Below are positions 4,812 to 20,826 of a stretch of DNA of 35,894 nucleotides, piece after piece. Below the pieces are notes generated by a model that was given only the letters and a program-made list of their open reading frames with translations, did not search any database and was not told the DNA's origin. Origin of the DNA: an uncultured Alistipes sp. (GTDB lineage: Bacteria; Bacteroidota; Bacteroidia; Bacteroidales; Rikenellaceae); contig CAMWTS010000020.1 in the NCBI GenBank assembly GCA_947177225.1, positions 1 through 35,894 on the forward strand, given 5' to 3'. The position numbers and the translations under genes are program-made. Numbering within the stretch: position 1 is the stretch's first letter; each line of letters opens with the position of its first letter.

Positions 4812-4870
4812 GAGCGAGCGGACGCAGAATGCCGATTTTCACGAAAAATAACGCCTTTTCACGAAAAAAA

Positions 4871-6259
4871 TTATTTGGCAGGATTATACATAAAAATATT
4901 AGCCCGCCGCTTGTCGCCATCGGCCTTGCTGCGAGAGGCGAAACCGAGATAGAGATGGTCGCCATGAACCTTTATGCCCTCAGCCTCCATGTAGCCGGAT
5001 TCGGTAATGCCGAGTGCGGAGAGGGCGTCACGATCGGAAGCAGCCACAACCTCGGCACGCTGCTCGACGATGTTGCCGTCGAAGTCGAAGACGGTGAAAT
5101 AGGCCGCAGAGCCGTTGGAGGCAGTGCCCTCACCCTCGAAGTAGTAGATCTTGCCGCTGTCGACATCGAATCCCTGCCATGCGTAAGAGGATATGTCGGC
5201 GGTGTGATCCGCACCGGTCTTGGGTATGCCGAAACGTCCCAGAGGGGTGAGCTTGGTCAGGTCGCGCACGTAGACCTTCGGGGAGTTGGTCGCTGCCGGA
5301 TCGGTGCTCGTGCCGCCGCCATAGTTGCGCGAAGGCAGAGTAACATAGCTGCGCGGCAGAGCCAGAGCCTCGCTCAGACGGTACATGACGAACATGCGCA
5401 GCGTCGAGCCGGGATAGTTTATGGCCAGCACATCGTTTTCAACGTCGATGGCAGGGTGCAGCTCGCAGATGCCGCCCATGTAGAAGAGATCGCCGCACTG
5501 CTCGGGCAAAAGCGTCTTGCCCGGCTGATATTCGGTGCGTGCTACCACACTGTTAGACCAATACTCGTTCGACGAGTTGCGCGAAGCATAGGTGCCTGTC
5601 CAGACGTATGTCTTGCCGTCGGCAGCCTCCTCGACAGCCATATTGGTGCCGTGACCCGAATAGCGGAATATCATGTGGTCGTCGACCGAAGAGTTGGGAC
5701 GGGCACGCATGACATAGAGATCGTGTTTGTCGGTGCCGCCCAGCTGCATGTAGTATACAGTGCCGTCGGCCGCTATGTCGAAGCCCTGAATCACCGTATT
5801 GCGAATCAGATATACGAACTTCGAGTAGATGTTCTGTGCAGTGAACCCACCCACGCCGGTAGTGATCTCACCCATGGGAGTCACCTCGACGGCAGTCGAT
5901 GCCGTCAGTCCGCCGTACTCAGCCGTAATCAGAGCCTTGCCGCGCCCCACGGCCTCGACCATACCGGCCGCATCGATCTCGGCCACCGAGAGATTGGACG
6001 AGACGAAGTTAACCTGCGACGGCTCTATCGCCTGCCGCGAGCCGTCGCTCATCTCTGCCTCGACCGACAGACATCGCCCGGAGAATCGGCTTGCCGGAGT
6101 ATGTTCGGTGGTCGAGCGCAGCGATACGTCGCCCGTGTGGGTGAATGCTATGGCCTTCACCTCCGATTTATTGTCGGGCTGCGGATCGTCGGCACTGTCG
6201 CTGCCGCAAGCGATAAGCGCAGCCGTCAACATAGGTATAATCAACATCTTATGTTTCAT
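4871..6259 (-). CDS. Surface lipoprotein with Ig-like domain and putative propeller
   Basis: Last gene of the nucleoside/ribose operon. The 462-residue protein has a lipoprotein signal (lipobox LIAC, Cys18) and a bacterial Ig-like group 2 domain at about residues 35-126 (VEAVGRGKALITAEYGG). A region of about 330 residues follows, with recurring short strands of the type G-x-VYYMQ and KIYYFEG, suggesting a beta-propeller or similar repeat fold. I do not recognise a catalytic motif. In segments such as QGFDIAADGTVYYMQLGG it looks faintly like helveticin-type propellers, but that is weak. The start is ATG at 6259; a TTG at 6268 in frame adds only three residues. Position suggests an accessory surface binding protein. 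Confidence 0.6.
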   Translation of the reverse strand: MKHKMLIIPMLTAALIACGSDSADDPQPDNKSEVKAIAFTHTGDVSLRSTTEHTPASRFSGRCLSVEAEMSDGSRQAIEPSQVNFVSSNLSVAEIDAAGMVEAVGRGKALITAEYGGLTASTAVEVTPMGEITTGVGGFTAQNIYSKFVYLIRNTVIQGFDIAADGTVYYMQLGGTDKHDLYVMRARPNSSVDDHMIFRYSGHGTNMAVEEAADGKTYVWTGTYASRNSSNEYWSNSVVARTEYQPGKTLLPEQCGDLFYMGGICELHPAIDVENDVLAINYPGSTLRMFVMYRLSEALALPRSYVTLPSRNYGGGTSTDPAATNSPKVYVRDLTKLTPLGRFGIPKTGADHTADISSYAWQGFDVDSGKIYYFEGEGTASNGSAAYFTVFDFDGNIVEQRAEVVAASDRDALSALGITESGYMEAEGIKVHGDHLYLGFASRSKADGDKRRANIFMYNPAK

Positions 6260-6289
6260 AAAAATCAATTTATTACATTAAACAACGCG

Positions 6290-8224
6290 CTATCGCATCG
6301 CCACTGAGAAAGCCTTCGGACGCTCCATGGTCTGAGTGTATGTGCGGCCAAAAAGGTCGGTCACCTCGATCGTCACAGTAGTTGTGGGACTCGACGCATG
6401 GAACTTCCACATGTGGCAGTTGTAACCGGTCTGGAACGGTGCCGTCTTGCCGATATACGATATTTTGTGCATCGGATCCTTGCCGCGCACCTGCACACCG
6501 GTCAGCTCGCGCCCCTCTTCCGTTACGCGGATCGTAAAGCCCTGCTCCCAGTCCCATATGTTGACAAGTATGTCGTTCTCCTCGTAGCAGTCCTCCACAC
6601 CGTCGGCCGTGACCACCGATGTGAAATCGGGTGCGGCGGCGGCGATGATGCCGTTCTTGCGCACTTCATTCATGTCATAGGCACGGAAAGCGTAATCGTC
6701 GGGACGGCCTATGCCCTTGTATCGCCACGACACGTTGTCGCCGTCGAACGAGAATACCTCGTAGCCGCCGGGCGAACCGTCGAGACATACGTTGCAGTCG
6801 AATCCCACCGAGCTGTGATAGGTTCCCGTCCACCACCACGTACCGCTGGTGGCGGCCACATTCACCTCGTGTATGCCTGAAACGGGGTTGTCGATGCGCT
6901 GATTGACATGCGAATGACCCGAAATGACATAGACCTCGTCGAAGCCGCGAACACGGTTGATGACATCGTAGGCACCGGCCATGCCCGTGGTATAGCCTAT
7001 CGCACCGTCGACCTTGCGCCAGCGGTAGAGCGTGGCGTGCATCACCACGACAAGAGGCGCGCTGCGATCCTCGACCATCGAGAGATCGCGTTCGAGCCAT
7101 GCCAGCTGCTCGGCATCGACAGCCTCGCGATAGTTGAGTTTGCCTATCTTGCCCTGCTCGCCGCCGGTGTTCTGATAGATGATGTTGTCAAGAACCACGA
7201 AGTGGGCACGGCCGATATTGAACGAGTAGTAGGTGGGACCTATCACCTGACGGTAGATCTCCGAAGCCTGCCAGTCGTCGGTGCAGTAGGGATTGTTGTC
7301 GTGGTTGCCCATAGTGTGGAACACCGCCGTAGGATAGCCGTTACGACTCAACTCCTTGCGATAGTCGGCTATTGAGTAGTTGCGCTGATACCAGTATTCG
7401 TCCCAGCTCATGTCGCCCATGAACACCGAGTAAACCGGACAGCCGGCTTTGGCCACGGTCTCCCTCACATCGGCGAAAAAGCCGTTCTCCCAGCGGAACT
7501 GCGCCAGATCCTGACTTTGACGGTTGGCCACATGGTGATCGGTCGCGGCAATGAGCATGAAACGCGACTGGTCGACGGGCACAAGCTCGAAATCGTGCTG
7601 CTCGACGGTAGCCACGCGAGGCGAAAGATTTCGATAGAACAGCGGAATCATGTCCGACGTACACTCGGCCTCATAGCCCGACGGGATCGAGATGAACACA
7701 TATCCGCATCGTTTTGCCGAGCGGAACGAGTAGTAGCCCTCGGCATCGGTGCGCACACACAGATCGCCGTCCGAGACCACAACGCCCGCTATGCCCCGGC
7801 CGTCGACGGAACGCACATAGCCCGTCAGATTGTCGGCATCAGGATCCTCGCCGTCGGTCACCTCGACCGCGACGTCGCAATGCAGCGACGAGCAGCGTGC
7901 CGAGATCTGCGCCGAGCCTTTGCCCACAGCCGTCAAGCGGCCGTCTGCAACCGTAACCACACGTTCGCTCGACGTATACCAGCGCACCTCTTTGTCGGCT
8001 ACGGGAATCGGGCGGCCATCGGCACCGCGCAACTCCACCGCAAGCTGCGTCTCCTCACCCAGGCACATCGTAATACCGGAATCGATGCCCGCGAATGTCA
8101 TCGACACGGCCTCGACCGGTGCAGGGTCATCGACGGCCGACGAACTGCTGCATGCTGCAACGCACGTCGACATAAGGGCGACTACGGCCGCCATGCCTGC
8201 AATTATCTCTCTTCTGTAACTCAT
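6290..8224 (-). CDS. Calcineurin-like metallophosphoesterase lipoprotein
   Basis: A 644-residue exported lipoprotein (lipobox VAAC, Cys25). Domains in order: an Ig-like group 2 domain (about 38-125); a carboxypeptidase-regulatory-like domain with GYVRSVDGRGIAGVVVSD (about 133-215), as in the Metallophos_N arrangement; a calcineurin-type catalytic domain (about 222-470); and a C-terminal beta domain matching the MetallophosC arrangement. Metal ligands are visible: D229-x-H231, G270-D271, G306-N-H-D309, H396 and G436-H-S-H439. It therefore probably hydrolyses phosphate esters outside the inner membrane. In a locus with a nucleoside hydrolase and ribokinase, nucleotides are a plausible substrate, but the sequence does not fix specificity. 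It lies 30 bases upstream of the next operon gene. Confidence 0.85.
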   Translation of the reverse strand: MSYRREIIAGMAAVVALMSTCVAACSSSSAVDDPAPVEAVSMTFAGIDSGITMCLGEETQLAVELRGADGRPIPVADKEVRWYTSSERVVTVADGRLTAVGKGSAQISARCSSLHCDVAVEVTDGEDPDADNLTGYVRSVDGRGIAGVVVSDGDLCVRTDAEGYYSFRSAKRCGYVFISIPSGYEAECTSDMIPLFYRNLSPRVATVEQHDFELVPVDQSRFMLIAATDHHVANRQSQDLAQFRWENGFFADVRETVAKAGCPVYSVFMGDMSWDEYWYQRNYSIADYRKELSRNGYPTAVFHTMGNHDNNPYCTDDWQASEIYRQVIGPTYYSFNIGRAHFVVLDNIIYQNTGGEQGKIGKLNYREAVDAEQLAWLERDLSMVEDRSAPLVVVMHATLYRWRKVDGAIGYTTGMAGAYDVINRVRGFDEVYVISGHSHVNQRIDNPVSGIHEVNVAATSGTWWWTGTYHSSVGFDCNVCLDGSPGGYEVFSFDGDNVSWRYKGIGRPDDYAFRAYDMNEVRKNGIIAAAAPDFTSVVTADGVEDCYEENDILVNIWDWEQGFTIRVTEEGRELTGVQVRGKDPMHKISYIGKTAPFQTGYNCHMWKFHASSPTTTVTIEVTDLFGRTYTQTMERPKAFSVAMR

Positions 8225-8290: not shown

Positions 8291-10963
8291 CTACAATACT
8301 ACACGTATGTTATCGATGAAGAAGCGACCGTAACCGCCGGGATATGCCGAAGCCGGAGCCGGACCTATCTTGATCTTGGTCTCAGCCGTACAGCCGTTGA
8401 TCTCCACCGTATTGGTCACGAAGTCGATGGTCGAACCGGCCGAAACGTTCTTCGTGGTCTGACCGTCGGCAAACGTACCGCCGTTCTCTACGACGATGGT
8501 CAGCTCGGTGCAAGACTTATCGTTGTAGCGGGCTGCATCGAAGCGCAGCTCGACGCTCTTGCCCTCGGCGCGCTCGCCCAGTGCGGGAGTGCGGATCCAC
8601 ACCTGCTTCGAGGCGGCCTCATCGCCATACCACGTCGTCGTGCCCGTACCCAACTGCATGTAGCCTCTTACGCCGTACATCAACAGACCGTGCCAGCCGT
8701 CCAGCTCGCACTCGAAGCGGAAGAACTTGCCGTCGTTAACGGCACCGTCGTTGGTGATGTCGGCACCGTCGTAGAAGCCCTCCGATCCGCGGAACGAAGC
8801 CTCCATGTTGTTGCCTATGCGGAACGTATTGCTGGTCATGTAACCGTCGCCGCCGGCAGTGAATGTAGCACCCTGCTCCTGACGATACTCCACCTCGCGG
8901 ATATTCATCAGAGGATCGTGCATGACGGCAAAGCCGCCGAGGTTCTCGTCTTTGGCTGCATTGGCCGAACCGCCCACCGAGAATACCGAGTGCCAGTTGA
9001 GCATGCGGTGTCCCAGCTTGATCGAACCGATGGCATCGGTGCCGGCGATGAAGTGATCGAAGTTGACATTGATAAGCTCGTTGCTGCCCGACTCGTAGAA
9101 CGACTTCTTGCCGCCGATCTCGCCTGCCGATTCCAGGGCAATCCAACGCTCGTTGAGATACTGGGGTATGCCGCGAACGATGATCTCGAATACCTGATGC
9201 TTCTCGTCGGCACGATAGATCTCGAAGTTGTCGCATGCCGAGAGGTTGCCGCCGGCAACGCACATGTGAGGTACGACAGCTCTCATCTCGGCCTCGGTCA
9301 TATGGCGGCCTGCGGCCGGACGGCACATCAGGTATGCCGTCGAGGGGGTCTGGCGATATATCTCCACAACCGACGGCGCACTGTTGGCCTCTATGGCATC
9401 GGGATCGCCCAGGATATCGAACGAGAGGTTGTCCATCAGAAGCGTCTGCTTGAAGCGGGGCGTAATGCGGAACGAGATGAACTGATCGTTGTAAGAGGTC
9501 AGATCGACACGCTGCGTAGTATAGCGGAATACCTGATTCTCGGTCTGGCAGTCGCCGCTGATGTCGATCCACGTATCGCCGAAGTCGGGCGTATACTCGG
9601 CCTTGATCCAGCGCGCGAACAGAGAGTTGTCCTCGCCGTTCTTCTCCACGAGCGAAGCATATGTGTTGTAGGCCACGTCGAAGCTCATCGTAACGGCCTC
9701 GGTAGCTGCACCCACATTGACGTTGTAGACATAAAGCGTCAGGTCGTCGTTGATGTGGGCTGCGGGGTGAGCCTCGTTGTAGTCGTAGATGGCAGAGTAA
9801 GATGCCAGCGAAGCATCGTTGGTGCCCAGACCGCCGTTGTTGGCGTTGCCGAAATAGAGGAAACCGTCGTTCTCGTTCTCATTCTCGAAGCGTGTGCCGT
9901 GCTGCATATCGATGCGCAGACCGCCCCAGTACGCAACCGATGAAGCACCTGCGCCCGAAGGGGTGAAACCGTCGAAGTAGTTGACCAGCTGACGCTGCTT
10001 GGTATTCTTGACGATCAGCGTAGCGTCTTTGGGCTCGCCGAAGGTCTCGGTGAATATGTTGATAGTCTGGTCGAGAGTCTCGAAAGCGAGTTTGAGATGC
10101 TTGTAAATGACGGTGCCGTTATCCACATCGGTCGACGAGAGATCCTCTTCCAGGGCGACAGTGCGAATACGCACCGTGCCGTCGTCCATGGTGAAGGTGA
10201 ACTTCAAACCCTCGCCGGCAACGATCGTGAACTCGCCCACGGGCAGCTTCACCACCGAGCGGCCTGTAAGCGTCATATAGTTGTTCTGACCCGTGCGGAA
10301 GTCGACCGTCATGCTCTTGCCCTCCGACTTTCCGCTCACCGTACCGGCAGCCGATACGCGAGCCTCGAAGCCGAAGCCGCCGGTCATATCCTGCTCCGAC
10401 ACGGGCTCGATCTCGATCTTCGACAGACGCAGTCCGCTGCCCGGAATCGAGAGTTCGAGCATGGGATTGCAAGGACTGAACGAGATGTCTACGCTCTCGG
10501 GATCGGTCATGCCGTCATACTCGGCTTCGCCACGTCCCACGAGCACGATCGACGTCGTATTCTCGCCGTCGACGATCGTTTGCGCTACGGGTATCGACAC
10601 AGTGAACTCGCCCGAAGCGGCATCGGCCACGTAGGGAGCCACAGCCCAGAATCGGAACTTGCCCGGAGTCTGTCCCCACACCGGAGCCACGGCACCCGTC
10701 AGAGCCGATACGGCTCCGTTGTCGGCAGCCGTGAAGGCCGAATATTGAAGCACGTCGCCGCCCAGACCTATCTGCTCGCCGGCTTTGAATTTCACGAGTC
10801 CCTCGTCTGCCGTAGCACGCGTGCCAAGATCGACGACAGCATACTCCGAGCTGGAAATAACACCGTTGAACACTGTCCTGCTCACCGGCTCGACGGCCGG
10901 ATCGTCGTTGGTACAGCTCACCGCAGCGGCAGCCATCAACGACACGAATAACATTTTTTTCAT
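8291..10963 (-). CDS. Large fimbrillin-like surface lipoprotein, probable ligand-binding partner of SusC/D
   Basis: An 890-residue lipoprotein (lipobox AVSC, Cys17) immediately downstream of susD, the usual place for a surface glycan-binding protein. Residues about 40-310 look like a fimbrillin/Mfa-like domain: GTRATADEGLVKFKAGEQIGL, FRFWAVAPYV, and the strand pattern before KHLKLAF. The remaining roughly 560 residues are beta-rich and contain two stretches resembling jelly-roll ligand-binding modules, each ending in a phrase like LLMDNLSFDI or FFIDNIRVVL, common at the end of carbohydrate-binding-like domains. No enzymatic motif was seen. Function as a binding lipoprotein is inferred from position and composition. 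It is separated from susD by 90 bases. Confidence 0.65.
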   Translation of the reverse strand: MKKMLFVSLMAAAAVSCTNDDPAVEPVSRTVFNGVISSSEYAVVDLGTRATADEGLVKFKAGEQIGLGGDVLQYSAFTAADNGAVSALTGAVAPVWGQTPGKFRFWAVAPYVADAASGEFTVSIPVAQTIVDGENTTSIVLVGRGEAEYDGMTDPESVDISFSPCNPMLELSIPGSGLRLSKIEIEPVSEQDMTGGFGFEARVSAAGTVSGKSEGKSMTVDFRTGQNNYMTLTGRSVVKLPVGEFTIVAGEGLKFTFTMDDGTVRIRTVALEEDLSSTDVDNGTVIYKHLKLAFETLDQTINIFTETFGEPKDATLIVKNTKQRQLVNYFDGFTPSGAGASSVAYWGGLRIDMQHGTRFENENENDGFLYFGNANNGGLGTNDASLASYSAIYDYNEAHPAAHINDDLTLYVYNVNVGAATEAVTMSFDVAYNTYASLVEKNGEDNSLFARWIKAEYTPDFGDTWIDISGDCQTENQVFRYTTQRVDLTSYNDQFISFRITPRFKQTLLMDNLSFDILGDPDAIEANSAPSVVEIYRQTPSTAYLMCRPAAGRHMTEAEMRAVVPHMCVAGGNLSACDNFEIYRADEKHQVFEIIVRGIPQYLNERWIALESAGEIGGKKSFYESGSNELINVNFDHFIAGTDAIGSIKLGHRMLNWHSVFSVGGSANAAKDENLGGFAVMHDPLMNIREVEYRQEQGATFTAGGDGYMTSNTFRIGNNMEASFRGSEGFYDGADITNDGAVNDGKFFRFECELDGWHGLLMYGVRGYMQLGTGTTTWYGDEAASKQVWIRTPALGERAEGKSVELRFDAARYNDKSCTELTIVVENGGTFADGQTTKNVSAGSTIDFVTNTVEINGCTAETKIKIGPAPASAYPGGYGRFFIDNIRVVL

Positions 10964-11053: not shown

Positions 11054-12862
11054 CTACTCCCAGCCGGGATTCTGCTTCAAGGCGCTGTTGACCTGTCGGG
11101 CATCGTAGGGGATCGGGTGCAGATACATCTTGTCGGTCCACACACGTCCCGTAGTCGAACCGTCCGATGCGCCGTAGGGGTTGTAGACCAGTATGTCCTG
11201 CTTGTTGATAATCAGCGACGGATTGTCGCGGAGCACCAGATAGGTCGTACCTCGCTCCGTGCCGGCCACCTTCTGCACGATACATATATAGCTGCCTTCG
11301 CGCAACTGCTGCGGCACGCCCAGCGGCGCATATATGCCCTGCCACTCGCGCTGGATCAGATGTCCCAGATGCCAGCGCATGAGATCTTCGTAACGCGTAT
11401 TCTCCATAAACATCTCGCAGCCTCTCTCGCGGCGGATCTCCAACAGCACGGCATCGCTCACCGTATCGTCGAAATACCACTTCATATAGGGATCGGCCGT
11501 CACGGGATACGACACGTCCTCGATACCGGCACGCGCACGCAGCACGGCAATGGTCTTGTTCCAATCCTCCTCTGTGAACTCTCCCAGCTCGGCCTTGGCC
11601 TCGGCATAAGCAAGCAGCACCTCGGCATAACGCATGATGGGCAGCGAATTGAAACTGCGCGCACTCGACTCGTAGTAGTCGTTGTCCATATTCCACTTGA
11701 TTACCTGATAGCCCGTACGCGTGATGGCGAAGTTGGGCGAGTAGAAGTCCAGAACATTATTCTGCGTCTTGCGATACTCCGGCGTAATGATGGTTTGCTG
11801 CAAGCGCAGGTCGCGGCCTGCCAGCTCATCGACGAACGAGTTGCGCGCATATCCCGTCTGGTCGGTGTAGCGTGTGCCGTCCAGTTTGAGATAGGTGTTG
11901 AGGAACTGTTTGGTCATCGACCAGCAGTTGCCGGTGGTCGACGAACAGAACTTCCACGTGACATCGTTCAGGATCGACTGTGCCGAGCTGTACTCGCGCG
12001 CCCATATCACCTCGCGGTAGTCGATGGCCTCCGAGTTGAACAGCGCACGATACTGCGTGGTGCGCGATGCGGCGTTGTCGACGATCTGATACTTGCCGCT
12101 GCCCATGAGATCCTCGGCAGCCTCGACGCAGGCACGCAGATAGTCGTCGCCAGTGCCGTACTCGGTGCTCCACGGCGCCAGAGTTTCGGGATTGACCGCA
12201 TGATACTTGCGATAAGTACCCTCCCACAGACACACGCGCGCCTTGAAGGCCAGAGCTATATAGCGGTTTATAACGCCGCAGTTGACATATGCCGAAGCCT
12301 CCGAGCAGTGCGTCGCAGCGAAGTCGAGATCCTCCAATATCTTCGACATGACGAACTCGCGCGAATCGCGCTCCTTGTACAGAGCCACCATATCCTCGGC
12401 ATCGATCGGCGTCTGATACCACGGCACGCCGCCGAACGACTTGACCTTGGCCCAATAGAACCATGCACGCCAGAAACGGCCTACGCCCTCGTAGTGATCG
12501 AGTGTCTGCTGCGGCACGCCCGACACCTCGTGCATGTGCTCCAAGAAATAGTTTATGTTGTAGAGCATCGTCCAGTCGGAGATGCTCCAACCGGTCTGGT
12601 TGGTCGAATTCCAGCTGTCGAGATAGTAGTTCGACAGGTTGGTGCGCGCCACATACTCGGCATTCTGATCGCCATAGGTCAGCGTCGAAGCCGCCGAGGT
12701 ATACTTCACCAAAAAACCGTTGGCATAGTTCAACAGACTCTTCTCGTCGGTAAAATACTTACCGGCATCGACCTTGTTTATCATGTCGCGATCGAGGAAA
12801 TCGTCGCACGAGACAGATCCGCAAGCCGCCATTAGAGTCAACGCATACAATATCTTTTTCAT
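11054..12862 (-). CDS. SusD-like nutrient-binding lipoprotein
   Basis: Cell-surface lid protein that captures ligand for its SusC channel. It has 602 residues, a lipoprotein signal peptide (probable acylated Cys19 in GSVSCDD; Cys14 is an alternative), and SusD features: FLDRDMINKVDAGKYFTDE at the N-terminus, the RFWRAWFYWAKVKSFGGVPWY helix, and the C-terminal RRERGCEMFMENTRYEDLMRW segment with YLHPIP near the end. It begins 14 bases after the susC stop, the standard tandem arrangement. Ligand cannot be read from sequence; the locus suggests nucleosides or ribose-containing compounds. Confidence 0.95.
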   Translation of the reverse strand: MKKILYALTLMAACGSVSCDDFLDRDMINKVDAGKYFTDEKSLLNYANGFLVKYTSAASTLTYGDQNAEYVARTNLSNYYLDSWNSTNQTGWSISDWTMLYNINYFLEHMHEVSGVPQQTLDHYEGVGRFWRAWFYWAKVKSFGGVPWYQTPIDAEDMVALYKERDSREFVMSKILEDLDFAATHCSEASAYVNCGVINRYIALAFKARVCLWEGTYRKYHAVNPETLAPWSTEYGTGDDYLRACVEAAEDLMGSGKYQIVDNAASRTTQYRALFNSEAIDYREVIWAREYSSAQSILNDVTWKFCSSTTGNCWSMTKQFLNTYLKLDGTRYTDQTGYARNSFVDELAGRDLRLQQTIITPEYRKTQNNVLDFYSPNFAITRTGYQVIKWNMDNDYYESSARSFNSLPIMRYAEVLLAYAEAKAELGEFTEEDWNKTIAVLRARAGIEDVSYPVTADPYMKWYFDDTVSDAVLLEIRRERGCEMFMENTRYEDLMRWHLGHLIQREWQGIYAPLGVPQQLREGSYICIVQKVAGTERGTTYLVLRDNPSLIINKQDILVYNPYGASDGSTTGRVWTDKMYLHPIPYDARQVNSALKQNPGWE

Positions 12863-12876
12863 AATCTGCCAGTTGT

Positions 12877-15800
12877 TTAGAATGTGAGATTTATACCGAA
12901 GGTCACCGATTTGAGCATCGGGTAGTTATAGCCGTCGGCATAGTCGCCCGCGGTCGTCGAGTTGGTGAAGTCGCTGTCGCCGGCACCAAACTCCGGATCG
13001 AAATTCCTGGTTATCTTTCTCAGAGGCGACCACGTGAAGAGGTTCTCGCCGGTGACATAGATACGCAGACCGCTCAGATGTATCTTCTGCATCATCTCCT
13101 TGGGGAAGGTATACGACAGAGTGATGTTTTTCAGACGGCAATAGGCGACGTTTTGCAGGAAGTGGTCGTTGGACTGTCCCATCGTGGTCTTGGCATCGCC
13201 ATCGCCCTTCGACCCCTTAGAGGTCAGGTAACCGGTCATGCGAGGCCAATAGGCATCGAGGTTCTGGTTCTCGTCGGTGTAGATATTGTCGCCCGTATGA
13301 GCCTGCAACATAAAGCTGTAAGGACGGTTGAACTTGCCCCAGAAGAATGCCGCCTCGTTCGAGGGATACCAGTCGCGCTTGCCCACGCCCTGGAAGAAGA
13401 CGCTAAGATCGAATCCCGCATAACCAACATTGAGATTCAGTCCGTAGCAGAAACGCGGCGAGGTGTTGCCGATGATCTCGCGATCGCCCGGATCGTCGAA
13501 GGTGTTGGCTCCGTTGTTGACCGCACCGTCGTCGTTGAGGTCGTAGAATTTCATGTCGCCCGGACGGGGTTTGTTGCCCTGGCGGTTGAATGTGAAGTAG
13601 CTGTTCATGTCAGCCCAGCCTGCAACATCTTCGGCCGACGAGTAGAGTCCGGCATAGCGATAACCCCATATCTCGCCTATCTCCATGCCCTCGTAGTAGT
13701 CGCTCAGCTTCTTGGTGGCGTTGTTGTAGCGCGTCACCCACGAACGGCTGTCCCACAGCATGGCCTTGACGCCGTAGTTGAGAGTGTGCTTGCCCACACG
13801 CACGGCATCGCGCCAAGCCAGGCTTACCTCCCAGCCGTAGGTCTTCAAATCGGCGTAGTTGCCCTTGGGCGAGTTGTTGCCGAACACGGCCGGAAGCGTC
13901 ATGCCCACGGTAAACATATCTTTGGTGTCGCGACGATAGACATCGCCCACGAAGTTGAGCCGGTTGCCCAGGAAATCCATGTCCAGACCCACGTCGTAGG
14001 TAACGACCTTCTCCCATGTCAAGCCGTCGGGAATGGGATTGGGAGCCTGCGTATAGGTGGGCGTCGATCCGTTAATCAGGAACGACGTACCCTTGGACAG
14101 GGACATCGACTGCATATAAGAGTAGGCCGAGACGCTGCCGTTGCCCAGCATACCAACCGAAGCACGCAGTTTCAGATTGTCGAGCCACTCCCTGGCATTC
14201 TCCATAAACGGCTCCTCCGATATGCGCCAGCCGAACGATCCCGACGGGAACATCGCCCAGCGCGAGTTCTTCGGGAACTTCGACGAACCGTCGTAACGGC
14301 CGCTCACCTCGAACAGATAACGATCCTTATAGCTGTAATTGACACGTGCGAACACACCCACGAAACCCCACTCGTAGGATCCGTCGTCGCCCAGCATATA
14401 GTAGTCGCCGTCCATCAGCGAGAAGTTGGGCTTGTCGGTCAGCAGGCCGCGGCGATAGGCATAAGTGGTGTAGTATTTACGATCTTCGATGTTCCAGCCG
14501 GCCATCACCTTCAACCGATGGTCGTCGCCCAGACGGGGCGACCACGTCAGATAGACGTTGCCCGAAAGATAGTTGTTGTTGAAGTATTTTTGTTCCAGAG
14601 AGTCGAATGCCGCACGCGACGACGGAAGCTCAGGTCCGTTCTTGAAGTCGTAGATGGCCTCCTTGCGGTCGCGTTCCGACTGGTTGAAATAGTAGGTGAA
14701 GTCGCCTTTGAGCTGCAACACGTCTTTGACCAGATCGAAGGTCATGGCGATGTTCTGCGTCATATCGAACTTCTTGTTGTGCTGATACGAACGGTCGGTC
14801 TGCAAACCGGCCACGCCTACGCAGACGGCCGCATCGGTCCAGCTGCCGTCGGGGTTGGTGATGAGCTGCATCGGGTAGCCCTGATGCTCCCACTGACGCT
14901 GGATAAGCATCTTGCCCGAATACGACATCGGCTGATGATATGTGCGGTTGACAAACGAGGTGTTGCTCTCCACATGCCACCAGTCGCGAATCCTGGCCGA
15001 GATCTTGGCACGGCCGTTCCACTGGTTATACCAGTCGTAGTCGGTGTTGTAGATGCCGTCCTGCGAGAAGTAACGACCCGATATGGCGAACTGTATGCGC
15101 TCGTTGCCGCCCGATATGTTGAGCGAGTGCTGATGCGCCGTAGTCGAGTTCTTATAGATTGCCTTGTCCCAATCGGTATTGCCGAAATACTCGTATCGTC
15201 CCGACTCGTTGACACGCCAGCGATCCAGCGAAGGATCGGCATCGCGCACCTTCAACTCCTCGTACCATGCGTTGTTGAACGCGAAGAGATTGTTGATCGA
15301 GGTGGGATCGTAGCCGTAGCTGCTGCGATACGACTCCAAGAACTGCTCGGTCCACTGCAAGCCGTTGTTCACCAGTTCGGGCTTGACCGTGCGCGAAAGT
15401 ATCGACACCGAACCGTCGTAACGCACCGTGAAGCGATCCGACTGCGCACGCTTGGTCGTCACCAGTATCACGCCGAATGCACCGCGCGCACCGTAGACGG
15501 CGGCCGACGAGGCATCTTTAAGCACCGAGATCGACTCTATATCATCGGGGTTGACCGTGGTGATGTCGCCCTCGACACCATCGACCAGCACCAGCGACGA
15601 ACCTCCCGAACCGATCGAGTTGGTGATACCGCGAATACGCAGCGTCGCGCCGTGCGACGGTTTGCCGTCGGTAAACTGCAACGTCAGACCCGGCACCTGT
15701 CCCTGCAACGAACGAACCACATTGGGATTGGGGCGGTCGAGCAGCTCCTTGCCCTTGATCTGCTCGACGGCACCGATAAGATCGCGCTTGCGCGTGGTAC

Positions 15801-16164
15801 CGTAGCCGATAACCACCACATCGTCGACACGCGTCGAGGCCGCCTCCTTCATCTCCACATCGATCGAAGTGCGGTTGCCCACCGTCATCTCGGCATTGTC
15901 GTAACCGATATAGGAGAATGCAAGCGTATCGCCGCTGCCGACGTCGGCTATGGCGTATTGACCGTAGGCATCAGTCAACACATAGTTGTTGGTGCCCTTG
16001 ACCACCACCGCAACGCCCGTAAGAGGATCGCCCGAAGCATCTTTCACTACGCCGCTAACGGTTCGGGGTGGGGAAACATGCCCCTGAGCCCGCACCTGCG
16101 ACACCGACAGCGTCGACAGGCATACCGTCAGCATGGAAATTCTGATTAGTAGTTGTTTAAGCAT
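12877..16164 (-). CDS. SusC-like TonB-dependent outer-membrane transporter
   Basis: Outer-membrane channel importing the substrate captured by SusD, energised by TonB. The 1095-residue protein has a signal peptide (cut near VRAQG) and a carboxypeptidase-regulatory-like domain (about 38-112: TVSGVVKDASGDPLTGVAVVVKG). A TonB-box-like VDDVVVIGYGT follows, then a plug domain with LQGQVPGLTL and the SusC signature SISVLKDASSAAVYGARGAFGV. The long barrel ends in VTFGINLTF. Length and order are typical of SusC. It lies 48 bases downstream of the transporter-hydrolase gene and is followed closely by susD, so it is part of the seven-gene transcript. Confidence 0.96.
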   Translation of the reverse strand: MLKQLLIRISMLTVCLSTLSVSQVRAQGHVSPPRTVSGVVKDASGDPLTGVAVVVKGTNNYVLTDAYGQYAIADVGSGDTLAFSYIGYDNAEMTVGNRTSIDVEMKEAASTRVDDVVVIGYGTTRKRDLIGAVEQIKGKELLDRPNPNVVRSLQGQVPGLTLQFTDGKPSHGATLRIRGITNSIGSGGSSLVLVDGVEGDITTVNPDDIESISVLKDASSAAVYGARGAFGVILVTTKRAQSDRFTVRYDGSVSILSRTVKPELVNNGLQWTEQFLESYRSSYGYDPTSINNLFAFNNAWYEELKVRDADPSLDRWRVNESGRYEYFGNTDWDKAIYKNSTTAHQHSLNISGGNERIQFAISGRYFSQDGIYNTDYDWYNQWNGRAKISARIRDWWHVESNTSFVNRTYHQPMSYSGKMLIQRQWEHQGYPMQLITNPDGSWTDAAVCVGVAGLQTDRSYQHNKKFDMTQNIAMTFDLVKDVLQLKGDFTYYFNQSERDRKEAIYDFKNGPELPSSRAAFDSLEQKYFNNNYLSGNVYLTWSPRLGDDHRLKVMAGWNIEDRKYYTTYAYRRGLLTDKPNFSLMDGDYYMLGDDGSYEWGFVGVFARVNYSYKDRYLFEVSGRYDGSSKFPKNSRWAMFPSGSFGWRISEEPFMENAREWLDNLKLRASVGMLGNGSVSAYSYMQSMSLSKGTSFLINGSTPTYTQAPNPIPDGLTWEKVVTYDVGLDMDFLGNRLNFVGDVYRRDTKDMFTVGMTLPAVFGNNSPKGNYADLKTYGWEVSLAWRDAVRVGKHTLNYGVKAMLWDSRSWVTRYNNATKKLSDYYEGMEIGEIWGYRYAGLYSSAEDVAGWADMNSYFTFNRQGNKPRPGDMKFYDLNDDGAVNNGANTFDDPGDREIIGNTSPRFCYGLNLNVGYAGFDLSVFFQGVGKRDWYPSNEAAFFWGKFNRPYSFMLQAHTGDNIYTDENQNLDAYWPRMTGYLTSKGSKGDGDAKTTMGQSNDHFLQNVAYCRLKNITLSYTFPKEMMQKIHLSGLRIYVTGENLFTWSPLRKITRNFDPEFGAGDSDFTNSTTAGDYADGYNYPMLKSVTFGINLTF

Positions 16165-16212: not shown

Positions 16213-18198
16213 TCATTGCCGGCACGGATAAGGGCTCGTAAAACGCTCCACATAGTAGCGGCCAATGGCCTCGGCCTGACAATCGGTGGCCGTCAGAATG
16301 CGGTCGCGGCCATCTTCCCGTGCAGTGAAGTGCATGTAACCCTCCTCATCGATGCTCAAAAGTCCCGGCTCGGAGAGGGTGAACATCTCATCGCCCTCGA
16401 TCACATAGAGTGCCGACATCAAATCCCACGTGGCACGGTCGTAAGGCATAGTGCGGTAGTTGCGATAGCCCTCCACCACGGGGTGATGCTCTGCCCAATC
16501 GACACCCTCAGCCATGACGGCACCTGGGAACTGAACCTGACGACCCAGCTCGAAGGGTGCGCAAACGATAGGCGCAGGCCACTCTTCAAAGAGTTTTACG
16601 GCTGCCGGAATGTCGTTGACAACATTGAACTCGGCACGCGCAGGCGTCGCAGGAGTAGAGAAGCTGCCTGCCATGATCGACATATAGGCCACCTTTCTGC
16701 GTACCAGTTCGCGACCCGACAGATCGCTGAACTCATCGGCCTGGCTGTCGAGCAGATCGGCCAACGTCGTGGCGAATCCCAACGATACGACCACCACCTC
16801 TCCGTCGTCGGCCGACGACAGCAGACGGCGATACATCGCCACCGACTCCTCCACCTGACCCTCTCGCTTCGAGCGCGCGAACAGCGGCTCGCCGCTCCGG
16901 TCGAGCATGGCGGCAACGGCTTCGGTGTAGTCGGCCGCATGACTGTTTTCGACAAGGCGTGCACCCTGCGCAAGGGCGATGTCGCCATAGCCGTAGAACG
17001 TATTCAAAAGGTCGATATAGTCGGTTGCCGTGGGGCTGAGCTTATGGTTGCTTATGCCGAGTATATCGACCTTGCCATCACGTGCGGCACGATAGAGCAG
17101 ATCCAACGCCAGTGCATCGTCTATGTCGTTGCCCATATCGGTTTCGACGATCACTTTCACGGGCTTGGCACCGGCAACAGTCTCCGCATCGCTCTCTCCG
17201 GCCTTGACTATCAAAGCCAATCCCGCGATGAACAGAACGAACATCACACCCAGCAACGCACCCGTGCGACGATCGGCACCGCGAAACTCCTTCCATACGA
17301 ATACGCCCCAGACGGCCGCTATCATCGGCGCACCCTGTCCCAACGCATACGATATGGCAGCACCGGCCTTGCCGGCCGCTATATAACTGAACGCCGTACC
17401 CAGACACCACACGGCACCGCCCAGCATACCCACCATATGGGTTTTCAGCGAGCCGCGGAAATACTCGGCATAACCGACCGGCTCGCCCACGAACGGGCGA
17501 CGCATGACAAAGGTGTTGAAGAGGATATTCGACAGCAGTACACCCACCGAAAATACCAATATCGCCGAATATGGAGTCAGCATGCCTGCCGTCGGCTGCT
17601 CGAAGTGGTCGAGATCCATTGCCGCAGCAACGAACCGATAGAAGCACGACATCAGCACACCAGCCACCACTGCCAGCACGATGCCTTTGCCATTGGCCGA
17701 ACTTTTGTCGCCTCCGCGGTTCATGCGCCCCGAAGCCAGACCGTTGCATATGATGGCTATGACAATCAGTGCCACACCGGCGAACAGCACCGCCGGATCG
17801 CCCTTCGGTGCACCGAAGTAGTTGATGAACACACCCAGCACCAGTGCCAGGCCTACACCGAGCGGGAATGCCACGGCCAAACCGGCCAGGGCGGTAGAGG
17901 CCGACAGCAGAATGTTCGAGGCGTTGAATATGACACCGCCCAGAATCACACTGCCTATATTGCCCCAATCGGCCTGAGCCAAATCCTCCGCAAGCGGACG
18001 TCCCTCGTCGCCGGTACTGCCCATAGTCAGACCCAGAACAGCAGCGAAGAGCACCATGCCGACGACATAGTCCCAGTAGAAGAGCTCATAACGCCACGTT
18101 CTGCCGGCCAGCTTCTGGGTGTTGCCCCACGAGCCCCAGCACAACATCGTGATAAAGCAGAATATCACGGCAAGCATATAACTGTTAACGATAAACAT
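16213..18198 (-). CDS. Fusion of a GRP/RhaT-like sugar permease and a nucleoside hydrolase
   Basis: One 661-residue chain with two functions. Residues 1-333 form ten membrane helices of the glucose/ribose permease group (MLCWGSWGNTQKLAGRTWR and ALGQGAPMIAAVWGVFVWKE are typical). Residues about 347-661 are an inosine-uridine-type nucleoside hydrolase starting VIVETDMGNDIDDALAL, whose Asp354, Asp360 and Asp361 correspond to the calcium/ribose-binding Asp cluster. Arg/Lys-rich loops follow helices 1, 5, 7 and 9, while acidic loops follow helices 2 and 6. By the positive-inside rule both termini are periplasmic, which puts the hydrolase in the periplasm. It would cleave nucleosides there and feed ribose to its own permease. 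The ribokinase gene is 36 bases upstream. In the B. thetaiotaomicron rus locus these are, to my knowledge, separate genes. Confidence 0.9.
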   Translation of the reverse strand: MFIVNSYMLAVIFCFITMLCWGSWGNTQKLAGRTWRYELFYWDYVVGMVLFAAVLGLTMGSTGDEGRPLAEDLAQADWGNIGSVILGGVIFNASNILLSASTALAGLAVAFPLGVGLALVLGVFINYFGAPKGDPAVLFAGVALIVIAIICNGLASGRMNRGGDKSSANGKGIVLAVVAGVLMSCFYRFVAAAMDLDHFEQPTAGMLTPYSAILVFSVGVLLSNILFNTFVMRRPFVGEPVGYAEYFRGSLKTHMVGMLGGAVWCLGTAFSYIAAGKAGAAISYALGQGAPMIAAVWGVFVWKEFRGADRRTGALLGVMFVLFIAGLALIVKAGESDAETVAGAKPVKVIVETDMGNDIDDALALDLLYRAARDGKVDILGISNHKLSPTATDYIDLLNTFYGYGDIALAQGARLVENSHAADYTEAVAAMLDRSGEPLFARSKREGQVEESVAMYRRLLSSADDGEVVVVSLGFATTLADLLDSQADEFSDLSGRELVRRKVAYMSIMAGSFSTPATPARAEFNVVNDIPAAVKLFEEWPAPIVCAPFELGRQVQFPGAVMAEGVDWAEHHPVVEGYRNYRTMPYDRATWDLMSALYVIEGDEMFTLSEPGLLSIDEEGYMHFTAREDGRDRILTATDCQAEAIGRYYVERFTSPYPCRQ

Positions 18199-18234: not shown

Positions 18235-19206
18235 TCAGGCCTCGGCCACCGCTGCGCTCGGTATCGATACGGCAGCCCTGTCGCAGCTGCCCGCAGCTTC
18301 GGCCTGCGGCTCCAACTCCCGACGATACGGGATCGAAGGCTGCGCTCCGTGACGCGTGACCGATATTGCCGAGCAGCGATTGGCGAAACGCACCGCATCG
18401 CAAACAGATTTGCCCTCGCTCAACGCCACGCACAGACCGCCGCAGAACGTATCGCCGGCCGCCGTCGTGTCTATCGCCCGCACCTTCACCGCCTCGACCA
18501 TCGTGACCTCGCCTCTTTCGAATACCAGCGCGCCGGCCTTGCCCAAGGTGATTATCACCACCTCCACTCCGCGAGAAGCCAGCACCTCGGCCGCACGCAC
18601 GGCACTGTCACGATCGACGATCTCCACGCCGCTCAAAGCCGATGCCTCCGACTGGTTGGGCACGATGGCGTAGAGTTTGTCATAGAGCGTCGGCGGGATC
18701 TCGGCCGCAGGAGCGGGATTCAGGATCACCTTGGCTCCGCCGCGGCGGGCGATCTGAGCAGCACGCTCCACACACTCGATAGGCGACTCCAATTGCATCA
18801 GGACGATGTCGGCTCCGGCGATGGCCTCGGAAGCACGATCTATGTCATGGCACGTGATGGCATAGTTGGCACCCGAAGCCACAACTATTCTATTCTCACC
18901 TTCGGCGTTGACATTTATCAATGCCACGCCCGACGGTGTCTGAGTGTCGACAAAGATGTAATCGGTGCCGACACCCTCCGCAGCATAGAGCTTGCGCGAC
19001 TCACGGCCGAACATATCGTCACCGACCTTGGCCACGAACGTAACTTCACCCCCCAGACGCGCTATCGCCACAGCCTGATTGGCACCCTTGCCGCCCTGAC
19101 TCATCATAAACTCCCCGCCGAGCAGCGTCTGCCCCGCTTCCGGAAAGCGATCCGAGCATACGGTCATATCGGTATTGGAACTTCCTACTACGACAATTTT
19201 CTTCAT
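18235..19206 (-). CDS. rbsK: Ribokinase (PfkB family)
   Basis: Cytosolic kinase converting ribose to ribose 5-phosphate. The 323-residue product starts with the RbsK-type MKKIVVVGSSNTDMTV. It carries the substrate signature GGKGANQAVAIARLG and the PfkB C-terminal motif DTTAAGDTFCGGL with its catalytic Asp, followed by SVTRHGAQPSIP near the usual C-terminus. About 24 further residues, Ala/Ser-rich, extend past that point. The ATG at 19206 gives the family N-terminus; an in-frame start further upstream would translate through the promoter/operator region. First gene of the seven-gene operon, divergent from a LacI regulator. Confidence 0.93.
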   Translation of the reverse strand: MKKIVVVGSSNTDMTVCSDRFPEAGQTLLGGEFMMSQGGKGANQAVAIARLGGEVTFVAKVGDDMFGRESRKLYAAEGVGTDYIFVDTQTPSGVALINVNAEGENRIVVASGANYAITCHDIDRASEAIAGADIVLMQLESPIECVERAAQIARRGGAKVILNPAPAAEIPPTLYDKLYAIVPNQSEASALSGVEIVDRDSAVRAAEVLASRGVEVVIITLGKAGALVFERGEVTMVEAVKVRAIDTTAAGDTFCGGLCVALSEGKSVCDAVRFANRCSAISVTRHGAQPSIPYRRELEPQAEAAGSCDRAAVSIPSAAVAEA

Positions 19207-19515: not shown

Positions 19516-19797
19516 TAGCGACGCCGCAGCATGGAAAGGCTATTATATATAAGGTGCTTATCAACGGCAAGAGTCCGAAGAGAGGTATCCGACGACAATT
19601 CATCATTGCAATCGGCTACGGACGACATGCCGGCAAAGGGCAGTGCACGAACCCTGCATCGTCACCCGACCGGCCGGAGCCAAACGATGGAAACAGACGA
19701 CATATAATCGGGTGTGCAAGCCGCCGACACCGATGCGAACGATATTGTAAAACACCTGCGCCAAGCTGTAAACACAACTGAAAAACGAAATCGACAT

Positions 19798-20826
19798 ATG
19801 CAGAAAGCGACATTGATAGGAATAGCCCAACGGACTGGTTTCTCGGTATCTACCGTATCGCGAGCACTGAGCGGACAAGCCGAAAAGTATCGCATAAGCA
19901 AGAAGGCGATAGAGATCATCTCACGCGAGGCCGAACGGTGCAACTACACTCCGAGTCTGCTGGCGAAAGGTTTGCGCATGAACAAAACCTACACCTTGGG
20001 ACTAATCATTCCCGGCATCGACAACCCCTACTTCGCCAACATAGCCAGCGCTATGATCCACGAAGCAAAGACGCTCGGCTACCAGATGATAATCATCGAC
20101 ACGCTCGAAAACGCAGCCAACGAACGCGAAGGCATCTCGTCGCTCATGTCGCGCAAGGTAGACGGCATGGTCATCGTCACCTCGGACAACAACGCCTCCT
20201 ATCTGGAAAACATACACCGCGACGTGCCGATGGTGCTAATCGACCGCCATTTCGCCGACACATCGCTGCCATACGTCTGCTCCGACAACCGTCAGGGAGG
20301 CTACGATGCCACGCAGTATCTCATAGGCATGGGTCACCGCAACATTCTCTGCATTCAGGGCGTGCAGCGCTCCATGCCGTCGCGACAGCGAGTCGACGGC
20401 TACCACGATGCCATGCGTCGCGCCGGACTGGAACGGCTGACGCGCGTAGTGGGCAACGACTTCACCATTCAAAACGGTTATCTCGAAACCAAACTGGCAT
20501 TCAGCTCGCCCAATCCGCCGACGGCCATATTCGCACTGAGCAACACCATACTTCTCGGTACGCTCAAAGCCATACACGAACTGGGGCTGCGCATACCCGA
20601 CGACGTGTCGATCGTGGCATTCGACAATCAGATCTACATGGACTACCTCAACCCCGCCATAACGCGTATCAGCCAATCCACGGCCGAGATGTGCACGTTG
20701 GCCATGCGCATACTGATGCAGCAGATTTCGGGCGACGGATCGTCGGACGTGCAGATGCTGCTGCCGCCAAAGATCGTCGTATGCAACTCTGTCAGAATCA
20801 TGCACCCATCGACCGACGGCAGATAA
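19798..20826 (+). CDS. LacI-family transcriptional regulator of the nucleoside/ribose locus
   Basis: DNA-binding regulator of 342 residues. Residues about 4-25 form the LacI helix-turn-helix (LIGIAQRTGFSVSTVSRALSG). The hinge helix follows (PSLLAKGLRMNKTYTLGLIIP), then the periplasmic-binding-protein-like sensor domain with NPYFANIASAM, DGMVIV and VSIVAFDN. The ATG at 19798 gives the standard N-terminus. It is divergent from the ribokinase operon, and three LacI-type operator sequences lie between, so it most likely controls that operon and perhaps itself. Sugar or nucleoside effector is not readable from sequence. This differs from the B. thetaiotaomicron rus system, whose regulator RusR is not, as I recall, a LacI protein. 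Confidence 0.92.
   Translation: MQKATLIGIAQRTGFSVSTVSRALSGQAEKYRISKKAIEIISREAERCNYTPSLLAKGLRMNKTYTLGLIIPGIDNPYFANIASAMIHEAKTLGYQMIIIDTLENAANEREGISSLMSRKVDGMVIVTSDNNASYLENIHRDVPMVLIDRHFADTSLPYVCSDNRQGGYDATQYLIGMGHRNILCIQGVQRSMPSRQRVDGYHDAMRRAGLERLTRVVGNDFTIQNGYLETKLAFSSPNPPTAIFALSNTILLGTLKAIHELGLRIPDDVSIVAFDNQIYMDYLNPAITRISQSTAEMCTLAMRILMQQISGDGSSDVQMLLPPKIVVCNSVRIMHPSTDGR

Follow-up and report, generated by a model that had tools for sequence, protein, structure and literature searches.

A permease joined to a nucleoside hydrolase in a predicted ribose-utilisation operon of an uncultured Alistipes species

A single open reading frame in the genome of an uncultured Alistipes sp. joins a permease to a nucleoside hydrolase, which raises the question of where the enzyme works, what the permease carries, and whether anything is gained by holding the two together. 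Enzymes fused to the carrier of their own product are, to our knowledge, rare. The frame lies in a 35,894-nucleotide stretch of DNA (contig CAMWTS010000020.1) that was analysed as a whole and is referred to here as the window. Ribose-utilisation (rus) systems of Bacteroides combine a ribokinase, a SusC/SusD pair, a nucleoside hydrolase, and a permease in one cluster; the gene list of the Bacteroides thetaiotaomicron rus locus, reportedly BT2803-2809 with RusT as the permease, is said to be found in Glowacki 2020. All of these components are present in the window, which with its fusion would represent a new and recurrent version of this system in which two of the parts are joined. No permease-hydrolase fusion is named in the titles and abstract openings that we searched, and passages of PMC8910321 make no mention of one; the figures of Glowacki 2020 may already show fused genes.

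The fusion gene encodes 661 amino acids in one open frame (16213-18198, minus strand). The initial annotation had described it as a one-protein fusion, and this is confirmed by the joined frame, the Pfam domains, a structure model, and a fold match. The permease part comprises residues 1-333 (17200..18198, minus strand), as assigned from Pfam matches (PF07168, PF06800, and PF07857), AF2 helices, charge counts, and a topology score. It is followed by a short, polar linker with neither a signal peptide nor an additional helix (residues 334-346; 17161..17199, minus strand), and then by the nucleoside hydrolase part (residues 347-661; 16216..17160, minus strand), assigned from PF01156, the fold match, and residue conservation. 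Ten transmembrane helices are predicted for the permease in the AF2 model, the tenth extending to residue 342. Of the earlier description as a ten-helix GRP/RhaT-like permease, the ten helices thus stand, but the RhaT name is loose: the match to the RhaT/GlcU family TIGR00776 reached 39.5 bits against a curated cut-off of 319.6, and membership was rejected. The top Pfam match places the permease among the ureide permeases (Ureide_permease, PF07168; 84.8 bits, gathering cut-off 27). With the PF07168/TMEM144-RhaT-GRP side of the DMT superfamily it shares an above-cut-off score, ten helices, and predicted non-cytosolic termini; unlike its PF07168 relatives, it carries a C-terminal enzyme and likely transports ribose rather than ureides. 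A sequence search of solved structures with the permease alone gave no match at E values up to 10, and with the whole chain or the hydrolase it gave two hydrolases and one spurious Fab match.

The hydrolase part scores 65.2 bits against IU_nuc_hydro (PF01156; gathering cut-off 34.2), which places it in that family, and a fold search matched it to solved nucleoside hydrolases. Every one of the 56 fused rows of alignment A1 keeps D354, D358, D360, D361, N525, and D592, and 55 of them keep E523; the Asp cluster and late Asp typical of the family are conserved by this measure. We take the metal- and ribose-binding roles of these residues from the IU-NH literature. Unlike other PF01156 hydrolases (RihA/B/C, plant NRH, and protozoal IU-NH), the enzyme is tethered to a transporter, and its motif has Glu (E352) in place of the first Asp and two residues (ND) inserted relative to 4kpn. 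Structure prediction of the full chain gave a pTM of 0.67, and the mutual placement of the two domains in the model is uncertain. The sole other nucleoside hydrolase match in the genome (L126:5703-7157, on contig C9) sits after a frame resembling a TonB receptor; by eye its leader is of the Sec type, and at its C-terminus is an FmdE domain (PF02663, 57.9 bits).

The fusion is predicted to belong to one operon with a ribokinase and SusC/SusD. The ribokinase (18235..19206, minus strand; TIGR02152, 370.3 bits, cut-off 299.65; coding start set at an internal ATG) lies directly upstream, 36 bases before the fusion, and on its other side is a divergent LacI-family regulator (19714..20826, plus strand; PF00532/PF13377), whose top NCBIfam match is RbsR at 203.4 bits, under that model's cut-off of 382. 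Past the fusion, and on its strand, are a SusC-type TonB-dependent outer-membrane transporter (12877..16164, minus strand; TIGR04056, 825.7 bits, cut-off 368.25), a SusD-family protein (11054..12862, minus strand; PF07980, 144.2 bits), an 890-amino-acid protein without any Pfam or NCBIfam match (8291..10963, minus strand), and, late in the predicted operon, a calcineurin-like phosphoesterase (6290..8224, minus strand; PF16370/PF16371/PF00149, including MetallophosN/C parts), the last three with lipoprotein-like leaders by eye. Relatives of the 890-amino-acid protein hold the same position beside SusD in loci L003, L004, and L011, and the order of lacI, kinase, fusion, SusC, SusD, and this protein is kept in L003 and L004, both of which end shortly beyond. 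Starting with TTG 21 bases past the phosphoesterase is a 465-amino-acid frame (4871-6268, minus strand) that matches the propeller domain Phage_RBD_prop (PF21311) over 71 residues at 35.9 bits (cut-off 23.7), and Big_2 below cut-off; the frame on the opposite strand (4829-6307) has no family match. Scans of the window found 9 promoter matches against 3.2 expected, and 1 terminator against 4.0 expected.

Relatives of the permease were followed in 84 loci, comprising the top 80 of 591 and four more. In 61 of them the gene immediately upstream of the permease is a ribokinase-like frame, and many permease-kinase loci are without a nearby hydrolase, a pairing that fits ribose itself as the cargo. 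Common as the kinase is beside the permease, the 120 rows listed include no chain that joins the two. Passages of PMC12596196 propose that RusT of B. thetaiotaomicron brings free ribose into the cytoplasm. Judged from the neighbouring ribokinase and from relatives, ribose is the likely cargo of the window's permease, a view that is partly supported.

These observations lead to a reading in which we have considerable confidence: a hydrolase tethered in the periplasm frees ribose, the attached permease likely imports it, and the ribokinase follows, as a variant of rus. SusC and SusD would bring nucleosides (or nucleotides) across the outer membrane, and the linked phosphoesterase could supply nucleosides by dephosphorylating the nucleotides. 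Hanging in the periplasm from the last helix of the permease, the hydrolase would then release ribose at the inner membrane, where the attached permease would import it and the ribokinase would trap it as ribose-5-phosphate. The prediction extends to ribose release no farther from the membrane than the linker reaches, which is a matter of proximity; substrate channelling in the strict sense, as in the initial annotation, would be a step beyond it. We infer the topology in the cell, the ribose cargo, and any gain from proximity. With rus of B. thetaiotaomicron, for which passages of PMC12596196 treat RusT, ribose, and nucleosides, the window has in common a kinase, SusC/SusD, a nucleoside hydrolase, and an inner-membrane ribose permease (here putative) in one regulated cluster. 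Unlike rus, it encodes permease and hydrolase as one protein and includes a LacI-type regulator, the extra 890-amino-acid protein, and the phosphoesterase. The predicted site of cleavage is like that of Pseudomonas aeruginosa Nuh, which the abstract of PMC5522865 describes as cleaving adenosine to ribose and adenine in the periplasm, and does not describe as joined to a permease.

The unfused counterparts of the enzyme bear on where it works. When a separate hydrolase was counted only if its frame lay on the same strand within 450 bases of the permease, 19 of the 84 loci had one, 3 were fused (L003, L004, and L036), and the other 62 had no hydrolase that close. By simple pattern rules (not SignalP), every one of the 19 separate hydrolases starts with a signal peptide, and 13 of them have a lipobox. 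The gene order of the window (lacI, kinase, permease, hydrolase, susC, susD) recurs in loci L011 and L122, where the hydrolase is a gene of its own; both hydrolases have a predicted lipoprotein-type leader and are 56.5% (L011) and 57.9% (L122) identical to the fused domain. Among 63 fused rows examined, no linker contained a signal or an eleventh helix, four high values being due to helix 10 itself, and the signal was replaced by a polar linker, roughly 9-42 residues long. Were the C-terminus of the permease cytosolic, an enzyme exported in 19 of 19 neighbours would end up in the cytosol once its signal was lost. Genomes G062, G202, and G011, listed as fusions by open frame, were rejected after their DNA showed separate genes with signals, and inspection of the DNA of G079 found no hydrolase next to the permease.

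How often the joint has arisen was considered on trees of the permease. Permease chains from 106 of the 120 proteins listed (the other 14 are without permease ends) and from 80 of 80 loci were aligned, 186 in all, and yielded a non-redundant set of 141 permeases less than 90% identical, or 138 after setting aside the odd chains P0039, P0050, and P0081. In a FastTree of the 138, in which truncated fusions may be hidden among 30 rows with the label 'alone', the permease-hydrolase label changes 18 times, at least 11 of them forced by starred branches; a quick IQ-TREE of 68 rows, hand-picked from the 138 and containing none of those 30, gave 14 changes, at least 7 of them forced. Gains and losses are counted alike, and both trees are quick ones, in which the stars are weaker. 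The two permease trees together put the minimum at 7 to 11 switches of the fused label. Permease-hydrolase fusions occur in separate records (the window, L003, L004, and L036) and in clusters, the largest (P0006) with 100 member sequences. Of 268 genomes of the family to which the window belongs, 104 have some match, and in three of them (that of the window, G128, and G018) one stop-free match spans the whole fusion.

It is nonetheless nearly an even question, leaning slightly to the negative, whether the fusion is simply a neutral tether, its periplasmic hydrolase serving the cell no better, kinetically or ecologically, than one made from a separate gene. This explanation is compatible with the topology that we favour. 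Some membrane attachment may predate the fusion, given that 13 of the 19 unfused neighbours are lipoprotein-like; a whole stop-free fusion is found in only three genomes of the family; and the loss of a stretch between adjacent genes is easy. Against neutrality, the label changes on both trees and the joining of different hydrolases suggest repeated selection, an argument that is weak because a shared neighbourhood eases repeated fusion and the trees are quick.

The periplasmic placement on which both of these explanations depend was first examined through charge. Over the 141 non-redundant permeases, the mean number of Lys and Arg residues is 14.52 in loops 1, 3, 5, 7, and 9, versus 4.28 in the N-terminus and loops 2, 4, 6, and 8. 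The odd loops are the richer in 141 of 141 cases (smallest difference 2), with all 48 fused and all 93 unfused permeases in agreement, which is the positive-inside pattern of a protein with cytoplasmic odd loops and both termini outside. By a simple dynamic-programming (DP) topology score, the window's permease favours N-out (264.3) over N-in (224.3). Two EamA proteins from this genome served as controls and came out N-in by the same scoring; EamA was found in three frames, the third being truncated where its locus ends, and a UbiA-like frame (by eye) that was scored in its place came out N-in by a small margin and is excluded from the controls. Passages of PMC3111387 assign PF07168 to the DUF1632 cluster; by Phobius and Lys/Arg analysis, both ends of the symmetrical two-domain families in this cluster lie outside the cytosol, an orientation common to 4 of the 6 families there. 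We found no topology experiment on this permease family in the literature searched. Tate and Henderson reportedly studied the topology of RhaT in 1993. The closest solved transporter to the model is LicB, whose helix 1 aligns with helix 1 of the permease. Members of LicB's DMT group are mostly N-in, so that with the same helix order the fold alone does not give N-out. An N-out/C-out permease with a periplasmic hydrolase is well supported as a prediction, and the initial claim that both termini, and hence the hydrolase, are periplasmic is sustained in that sense by the charges, the opposite EamA controls, the signals of the neighbours, and the published cluster topology (PMC3111387, in part).

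An alternative that the initial annotation had itself raised, in which intact nucleosides (or, as added here, bases) enter through the permease and a cytosolic hydrolase cuts them on arrival, appears unlikely. Plant ureide permeases carry nitrogenous compounds, and ureide permease is the top Pfam family here; LicB shares the helix order; and chains of the P0081 type join the permease to a protein with no visible signal. These points stand against a positive-inside bias found without exception, signal peptides by rule on every unfused neighbour hydrolase, two EamA controls that score the opposite way, and a permease that pairs with ribokinase in hydrolase-free loci, and a cytosolic hydrolase was rejected on this evidence of charge, signal, and neighbourhood. 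We retain the periplasmic, tethered hydrolase as the preferred reading.

The same permease C-terminus also carries other enzymes. In P0027 and P0030 it is a second type of nucleoside hydrolase, with no BLAST match to the window's own, and in P0028 and P0041 (with a complete permease) and P0121, P0123, and P0125 (with an incomplete one) it is an ADP-ribosylglycohydrolase, pointing to ribose from ADP-ribose-type substrates. A hydrophobic signal core is present in 107 of 108 stand-alone ADP-ribosylglycohydrolase relatives (rows of 490-530 amino acids among the 120 listed); this normal export of the unfused enzyme was counted in favour of a periplasmic permease C-terminus. In loci L065, L066, L070, L072, and L077, an ADP-ribosylglycohydrolase gene with a lipoprotein-type leader lies between kinase and permease. 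P0145 and P0245 combine ADP-ribosylglycohydrolase and nucleoside hydrolase in one chain without a permease, and the start of P0145 is signal-like. Single-cluster fusions to an endonuclease/phosphatase domain (P0064), a fucosidase (P0093, with the permease match reaching residue 285), and Gate (P0039) were set aside.

One clade holds chains of the reverse order (P0026, P0029, P0031, and P0034), in which a lipoprotein-type signal and hydrolase come first and the permease second; further hydrolase-first chains, P0084, P0087, and P0088, are without permease residues 1-89. Their use as direct proof of N-out was dropped, since a number of chains in this clade are merged, frameshifted, or deleted. 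In P0244, of the same clade, the kinase reads into a hydrolase that has kept its signal, and P0081, P0083, P0097, P0099, P0246, and P0249 appear merged, frameshifted, or deleted. By eye, the permease of P0081, P0083, P0099, and P0246 continues into a protein without a signal, and the P0081 extension has no Pfam match. We take these four as read-through because the clade is so rich in merged and frameshifted chains; they are not explained away, and if real they would be evidence against C-out. That assembly errors or frameshifts account for most of the fused frames, as the hydrolase-first chains from one clade, P0244, and the six other odd chains might suggest, is very improbable given the recurrence of fusions across separate records and clusters as large as P0006, and a polar linker replacing the signal in all 63 rows examined.

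A bolder proposal, and one that we hold tentatively, at somewhat less than even confidence, is that the permease serves as a docking post, its periplasmic ends having repeatedly been given ribose-releasing enzymes (two types of nucleoside hydrolase and ADP-ribosylglycohydrolase) that would free ribose at the mouth of the permease and thereby withhold it from neighbours. Ribose scavenging is reported, in the title of Glowacki 2020, to confer colonisation fitness on gut Bacteroides. Since the joint recurs with different enzymes, it offers a direct test of whether tethering to a permease privatises a nutrient. If the predicted topology is true, the fusions would also be a natural reporter of orientation for the ureide-permease side of the DMT superfamily, where orientation is a prediction in the literature consulted.
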